Shown in pieces: positions 22,183 through 23,930 of a DNA stretch of 64,000 nucleotides. Each line of letters begins with the position of its first letter. Positions within the stretch are counted from its first letter, which is position 1. The stretch is from an uncultured Draconibacterium sp. Its GTDB lineage: Bacteria > Bacteroidota > Bacteroidia > Bacteroidales > Prolixibacteraceae. Both the position numbers and the translations under genes were made by a program. The DNA lies in the NCBI RefSeq assembly GCF_963677155.1, contig NZ_OY781884.1:4460501-4524500 (forward strand), read 5' to 3'. The notes beneath the pieces are model-generated. The model was not told the origin of the DNA. It ran no database searches and saw only the letters and a program-made list of their open reading frames with translations.

Positions 22183-23930
22183 ATGGAGAATTTTATTGTA
22201 TCAGCACGAAAATACAGACCGGACTCGTTTCAGACGGTTGTTGCACAAGCATCGATTACCAACACGCTAAAGAATGCCATTAAGAGCAATCAGTTGGCGC
22301 ATGCCTATTTGTTTTGCGGGCCGCGTGGCGTTGGGAAAACAACTTGTGCGCGTATTTTTGCCAAAACAATAAACTGCACAAACCTTACTGACGATACCGA
22401 GGCTTGCAACGAATGCGAGTCGTGTACCTCGTTTAACAGTAGCCGTTCGTTTAATATTCACGAATTAGATGCTGCTTCTAATAACTCGGTTGATGATATT
22501 CGGAACCTGACTGATCAGGTACGTGTACCTCCACAAATGGGGAAGTACAGTGTATACATCATCGATGAGGTTCACATGTTGTCGTCGCAGGCTTTTAACG
22601 CGTTTTTGAAAACGCTGGAAGAGCCGCCAAAACATGCCATTTTTATTTTGGCAACCACCGAGAAGCATAAGATTATTCCAACTATTCTTTCGCGTTGTCA
22701 GATCTTTGATTTTAACCGCATTGGCGTTTCTGATATTTCTGAGCATTTAGAGTATGTGGCCAAAAGCGAAAATGTTGATGTAGAAGGCGAAGGGTTGAAC
22801 ATTATTGCGCAGAAAGCCGACGGTGCCATGCGTGATGCACTTTCAATCTTTGACCAGATTGTTAGTTTTTCAGGAAAGAAGATCACGTATCAGGATGTAA
22901 TTACGAACCTGAATGTGTTGGATTACGATTACTATTTCCGATTGGTTGACGAGTTTTTGAAAAACAATGTTACTGAGGTGATGGTGATCTTTAACGATAT
23001 CCTGAACCATGGTTTCGACGGACATCATTTTATAACCGGACTGAGCAGCCATTTCAGAGATCTGCTGGTTTGTAAAGATCCGGTAACGATACAGCTGCTG
23101 GAAGTTGGAGGCGACATTAAAGAACGCTACCGTACTCAGGCTGCGGCCACCGAAAGCGACTTTTTGCTCGATGCTATGCAAATTGCCAATACATGCGATA
23201 TACAGTATAAAACCAGTCAGAACAAGCGTCTGCTTATTGAGCTGGCATTGATTCGGATAGCACAGCTAACCTTAAAAAAAAAATAGCTGAAGGTCAGGAT
23301 GACATTCTCGAACCCATTTTTTCGGGCAAAAAACTGCCCGACGAAAAGCTTGCAGCCCAAACTAAAAGTAAGCCTGTAACACCGTCTGCAAATACACAAC
23401 CAGGGCAAGCAGTAAGCTCTGCTCCTGCAACACCACCGAAAAGATTAGTAAAACGTTCAAGTCGCGGGCTTGGTACCACATCTATAAAAAGAGCGTTAAA
23501 AGGCGACTTTGACGATGATAAAAAGCAATTGTCGGCAAAAGAGCAGTTTAAACTTTACTCAAAAGCTGATGAAACAGAACCATTTACAACAGAGCAGTTG
23601 GAAGAAAAGTGGAAAGAGTTTCTGCCACGACTGAATGATCGCCCAAGTTTGAAAGCTACCTTGTCGATTTTACCAACGATTCAGGAAGACTGGACTTTGT
23701 TGCTGGAAGTGGATAACCGTATTCAGGATGAGTTACTGGTAAATATAAAGCCGGAATTGGTTTCGTACCTGCGGAAAGAATTACACAACTCGAAGATTAA
23801 CCTAAAAACGGTGGTTTCGGATATTAAGCGAGAAAAAGTGATTTACTCGGATATTGAAAAGTACCAGGAAATGGCCAAAAAGAATCCAAACCTGGCATTG
23901 CTGAAACGAACTTTAAACCTTGATTTTTAA
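22183..23930 (+). CDS. dnaX: DNA polymerase III gamma/tau subunit, two products through an A10 slip
   Basis: Clamp-loader ATPase. From ATG 22183 the zero frame gives 367 residues: Walker A GPRGVGKT (46-53), zinc-ligand cysteines near 65, 75, 78 and 81, and the DEVH Walker B (128-131). It ends with three Lys codons inside a run of ten A (23274-23283), immediately followed by TAG. A -1 shift on that run continues without stops as IAEGQDDILEPIF, a Pro/Ala/Thr linker and a tau C-terminal domain to 23930, 582 residues in all, the normal Bacteroidota size. The short form corresponds to gamma. Programmed slippage and an assembly indel are both possible. A GTG at 22177 is an alternative start. Confidence 0.93.
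23274..23283 (+). promoter_or_regulatory. Candidate slippery site in dnaX (A10)
   Basis: Ten consecutive A read as TTA AAA AAA AAA then TAG in the zero frame. Slipping back one base in the run gives AAA AAA AAA ATA GCT and opens the tau frame. Runs of nine or more A are known sites of polymerase slippage in dnaX of Thermus, and A AAA AAG drives ribosomal -1 shifting in E. coli dnaX. I see no strong stem directly 3' of the run. Confidence 0.55.

Follow-up and report, generated by a model that had tools for sequence, protein, structure and literature searches.

A conserved A10 run separates the gamma and tau frames of dnaX in Draconibacterium: a case for programmed transcriptional slippage

In dnaX of an uncultured Draconibacterium sp., the break between the gamma and tau reading frames at a run of ten A was confirmed as a real arrangement. 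We propose, from comparison of the sequence with those of its relatives, that the gene is probably expressed by programmed transcriptional slippage, in which mRNAs carrying an extra A would give tau and the others gamma. RNA polymerase would slip on A10, a run close in length to the RNA-DNA hybrid (9-10 bp; PMC5009743), to produce mRNAs of mixed A number. An mRNA with A10 or A13 would stop at the TAG that follows the run and yield gamma; one with A11 (or A8 or A14) would join the −1 frame and yield tau, 582 residues long; and one with A9 or A12 would stop at a TGA four bases past the run and yield a gamma-sized protein. We infer that the polymerase is the slipping agent and, with it, the ratio of gamma to tau products.

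The dnaX frame break and its conservation

In the window, the whole stretch of 64,000 nucleotides that we analysed, the zero frame of dnaX encodes gamma on the + strand from 22183 to 23286 (367 residues, ATG to TAG, with matches to NCBIfam PRK14971 and TIGR02397); we took the ATG at 22183 as the start, giving 367 codons, whereas the ORF list opens instead at GTG 22177 and gives 369 aa. The frame reads ...ACC TTA AAA AAA AAA TAG, with the A10 read in the sequence at 23274..23283 and, directly after it in the dnaX frame, the TAG (23284..23286) that would end gamma on unslipped mRNA. The tau-specific region occupies the −1 frame of the same strand from 23283 to 23930, with 215 codons and a stop at 23928-23930, and a TGA at 23288..23290, also on the + strand and conserved in the family, closes the third frame, which an mRNA with two more A or one less would enter. 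Gamma and tau pieces matched PRK14971 (gamma/tau) in consecutive order: gamma residues 3-367 aligned with model positions 1-365 at 740.6 bits (cut-off 685), and tau residues 24-214 with positions 423-612 of 614 at 90.5 bits (E 1.1e-25), the tau piece being a fragment and the cut-off being set for the whole protein. The initial annotation had described a zero frame that stops at A10 after 367 residues and a −1 frame that stays open for 215 codons and ends in a tau domain, and all of this held. It had also called for a −1 slip on A10; the need for recoding stands, but the event is better described as one extra nucleotide in the mRNA or as a −1 ribosomal shift. Searches with the tau region gave no Pfam match over the cut-off and no credible relative in the PDB (the best match, at E 0.015, being to an unrelated protein). 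In the complete genome (5,268,975 bases, 1 contig) whole dnaX, gamma (E ≤ 1e-60) and tau each had a single place, and the window had fewer runs of at least nine A than shuffled sequence (8 overlapping matches versus a mean of 24.6).

The same site was aligned in relatives. A dnaX search of the genus gave a match in 36/37 genomes, and 32 of these 36 loci, our own included, had the same A10 and frame break; the rest were two with A11 and tau in frame, one with A9 and one cut by a contig end. In the family 131/140 genomes gave a match, 90 loci were read and 89 had a usable run. Tau requires one extra nucleotide in 82 of the 89 (77 with A10 and five with A11). Of the other seven, four had A11 and an in-frame tau and three required +2 (two with A9, one with A10). 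Among 34 genomes of the genus, selection on tau, read in its own frame, was purifying: its median dN/dS was 0.079 for 41 pairs with dS 0.05-1, and that of gamma was 0.02 (58 pairs). The proposal in the initial annotation that tau would depend on slippage is thus supported by both the break in 32/36 loci and the tau dN/dS.

Its alternative, a homopolymer miscall of A10 for A11, is excluded because most genus relatives carry the same A10 and frame break. The A11 with in-frame tau in 2/36 genus genomes would fit either a miscall or a decaying tau domain, but the preponderance of +1 loci in the family, the low tau dN/dS and the retention of the stops at 0 and +4 leave this pair of explanations a negligible probability. 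Equally improbable are two separate proteins, with the tau domain started independently. The ORF list does offer a start in the tau frame (TTG 23529, 133 aa), but an ATG (GTG and TTG not counted) is absent from the first 100 tau codons of 40/89 family genomes and scattered in position in the other 49, and the region is fused to gamma in frame in many other Bacteroidia.

Closure of the other frames and the agent of the slip

Both features looked for as marks of transcriptional slippage were present, namely a homopolymer of at least nine A at the shift site and closure of both non-tau frames just downstream. Both non-tau frames stopped within 18 nt of the run in 183/204 dnaX loci; at control codon boundaries of the same genes this was so in 12.6% for the gamma part and 11.9% for the tau part. 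The loci are related rather than phylogenetically independent, and a zero-frame stop is part of the definition where tau needs one extra nucleotide (class 1). The 204 loci, from 239 read, were those with a run of at least nine and a single open downstream frame, and the 35 others lacked one or the other. When each genus code or named record was represented by a single locus, closure was found in 161/189; in the subset of these whose zero frame holds tau, so that neither closure follows from the definition, the count was 98/116. The frame two nucleotides away (d=2), which is out of reach of a −1 ribosomal shift, was closed within 18 nt in 81/82 class 1 loci of the family and, outside it, in 27/34 class 1 and 67/78 class 0 loci (control 32-43%). 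In the window the stops are TAG at 0 and TGA at +4, and the +4 stop was found in 64/65 family sequences with TA after the run. The tau-frame codon that makes this stop must end in T; where it encodes Ala it was GCT in 53/54 cases, relative to a background GCT share of 25.8% among 3,561 Ala codons. The +4 stop is of no use to a −1 ribosomal shift.

The main alternative is that the mRNA is unslipped and tau arises from it by −1 programmed ribosomal frameshifting on A_AAA_AAA, which we consider unlikely, though it is the strongest of the competing explanations. In the phase of the window the A10 does contain this heptamer, E. coli dnaX uses A_AAA_AAG (PMC3711429, PMC5009743), and a 2016 review (PMC5009743) attributes the reversed arrangement to frameshifting by the ribosome and notes one Chlorobium with possible stimulators. 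Moreover, Shine-Dalgarno-like motifs were above control outside the family (18/115 versus 5.7%), which we counted against slippage by the polymerase. In the window's family, however, such motifs showed no excess (2/89 versus control 3.8%) and there was little downstream structure (mean z −0.51 versus control −0.26), so that the upstream Shine-Dalgarno and downstream stem-loop of the E. coli type were not found there. A ribosomal shift would also need only seven of the ten A that are retained. We favour slippage by the polymerase on two grounds: stops also close the third frame, and 10 of 269 loci need +2/−1 nt, which a −1 shift could not attain. RNA polymerase, rather than the ribosome, therefore appears the more likely agent.

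We also looked upstream of the run. Outside the family, the 60 bases before it folded somewhat better than control (mean z −0.94 versus −0.43). In one family, coded f7, a perfect 8-bp hairpin ended 0-3 nt before the run in 36/78 genomes, compared with 10/10,551 control positions, and its pairs changed on both sides at several positions; examples are L289, L294, L300, L304 and L319, in which it resembles the stem of an intrinsic terminator. The motif also occurred in named Flavobacteriaceae records (L102, L107), and L108 is likewise listed with the hairpin. In a Roseiflexus IS, a stem of this kind upstream is a stimulator of slippage by RNA polymerase (PMC5009743). The window has an upstream hairpin of its own (−8.5 kcal/mol), which relative to synonymous shuffles gave p = 0.05, a level of p ≤ 0.05 being reached by 24% of the 89 family loci; three of its ten pairs form in at most 35/67 relatives, and we do not claim it for the window because its pairs break too often.

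Frame changes across Bacteroidia and a second gene, coaBC

The dnaX search was extended to the phylum (389/392 matched; 29 new loci and 40 fetched regions read), to family f7 (148/149 matched; 28 new loci and 40 fetched regions read) and to named loci, taken as the best 80 of at least 594, with runs sought within about 250 bases around the gamma/tau boundary. A run of at least nine A was present at this site in 271/307 distinct genomes or records. Tau needed 0, +1 and +2 extra nucleotides in 129, 130 and 10 of the 269 loci classed, L334 (A6) and L338 (no single long frame) being excluded from these counts. An arrangement requiring slippage for tau was frequent among the Bacteroidota loci examined; Flavobacterium psychrotolerans RB1R5 and Aquimarina sp. 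RZ0 are among the named records that have it. The run was A10 in 226/269 loci and started in all three codon phases. On a FastTree tree of the gamma region the frame class of tau changed at least 39 times over the 269 rows and at least 21 times among the 226 with A10 only, counts that are rough because the tree is a quick one and some A9 or A11 calls may be sequencing errors.

The run has limits to its distribution. None of at least nine was found at the dnaX site in 13 loci of the same phylum outside class Bacteroidia (one has A7), nor in several Bacteroidales, e.g. L039, L046 and L112-L114. These five and L059, L065, L067, L070, L079, L083, L084 and L105 had no boundary A-run of six or more and tau in one frame; by their record titles several of the named run-less loci come from animal guts, and at least one (L067) from a lake. 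In L048 and L092 the gamma frame ends early (about 443 and 385 codons), with no boundary A-run of six or more found.

The genome holds 25 distinct A10 runs (from 32 overlapping matches), of which 23 were read. Those in dnaX and coaBC, together with L165 and L152, were the four flanked on each side by 60 or more open codons, whether or not the two sides shared a frame. At L165 (C1:4311055-4311064, − strand) two overlapping frames, together a transposase-like pair, are joined by the A10, with Pfam HTH_Tnp_1 upstream and a downstream piece of 140 residues without a Pfam match; presumably the pair is of the IS3 orfA/orfB type. At L152 (C1:1798483-1798492) one ORF ends with its stop codon overlapping the A10 and the next ORF starts nearby, a possible case of coupling.

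In coaBC of the same genome the A10 (C1:4723385-4723394; L170/L339, relatives L340-L406) covers residues 182-185, between the Pfam domains Flavoprotein (6-180) and DFP (188-370), and both other frames are closed, at +4 and +8. A family search gave a match in 70/90 genomes at E ≤ 1e-80, and 68 of the 70 loci were read. A run of A9-A11 lay between the CoaC and CoaB domains in 64 of the 68, the exclusions being L356 (A6), L405 (A7), L394 (contig end) and L406 (no run). Both other frames were closed within 18 nt in 61/64, compared with 731/8,960 control positions (8.2%). To reach CoaB, 36 of the 64 loci needed no extra nucleotide, 27 needed +1 and a single locus +2, and this frame class changed at least eight times on a FastTree tree of CoaC, relatives being fused or split at the same run. 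Of the 27 genes needing +1, four had a start codon (ATG, GTG or TTG) within 12 codons after the run. Outside the family 9/29 loci read had a run of at least nine, all in frame, and in four of them both frames met a stop no more than 18 nt on; for this reason the coaBC device looks to be mainly a family trait. Beyond the loci read base by base, split coaBC genes were also seen outside the family (G671, G704, G738, G689, G678). A search of the open-access literature found nothing on frameshifting or slippage in coaBC, and a slippage device there, as read from these alignments, looks new.

On balance, and with modest confidence, we suggest that programmed transcriptional slippage on runs of about A10 is an old standing feature of expression in class Bacteroidia. 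Because the output of the polymerase would cover all frames, the frame encoded in the genome would be nearly neutral and dnaX would therefore flip repeatedly while run length and flanking stops are held, the same device having arisen in a second essential gene, coaBC, of the window's family.

Relation to known systems and significance

The arrangement is not unprecedented, because a dnaX type that needs recoding for tau was described by Antonov et al. 2013 (PMC3711429), and the gene in the window is a further case. Their two-ORF dnaX GeneTack cluster comprised 17 genes from 12 genera, nine with A10, and transcriptional realignment was suggested for poly-A dnaX. As in that cluster, the gamma ORF adjoins the tau ORF with a −1 shift at the DNA level and A10; the window's gamma ORF ends at the poly-A, tau follows in the −1 frame, and the break and the run are conserved in relatives. 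Unlike the present account, the main-text passages of that paper make no mention of frame flipping, third-frame stops or coaBC, and in the open-access literature we found no survey of the dnaX site across Bacteroidota. The dnaX of Thermus thermophilus, with A9 and slippage in transcription (Larsen et al. 2000, as given by PMC1088944 and PMC5009743), shares with the window an A-run, nearby stops closing both other frames, and gamma and tau from one gene, but is reversed, with tau the unslipped and gamma the slipped product. Gamma and tau also come from one gene in E. coli (PMC3711429, PMC5009743), where tau is the zero-frame product and where −1 ribosomal frameshifting at A_AAA_AAG uses the Shine-Dalgarno-like motif and stem-loop that were not found in the window's family. 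The initial annotation's view that the arrangement is the reverse of that in both E. coli and Thermus was borne out, tau being the unshifted product in each.

If slippage operates as proposed, many Bacteroidota, including named Flavobacterium records, would need it to make one of the subunits of the replisome, and such a dnaX may be broken in two by gene callers or labelled as a pseudogene. The frame flipping across the class and coaBC are the parts worth following. The repeated flips are a natural experiment for asking if the frame encoded in the genome becomes selectively neutral under transcriptional slippage. In coaBC, slippage would make free CoaC (the decarboxylase) beside fused CoaBC, and would place the device outside replication and mobile elements.
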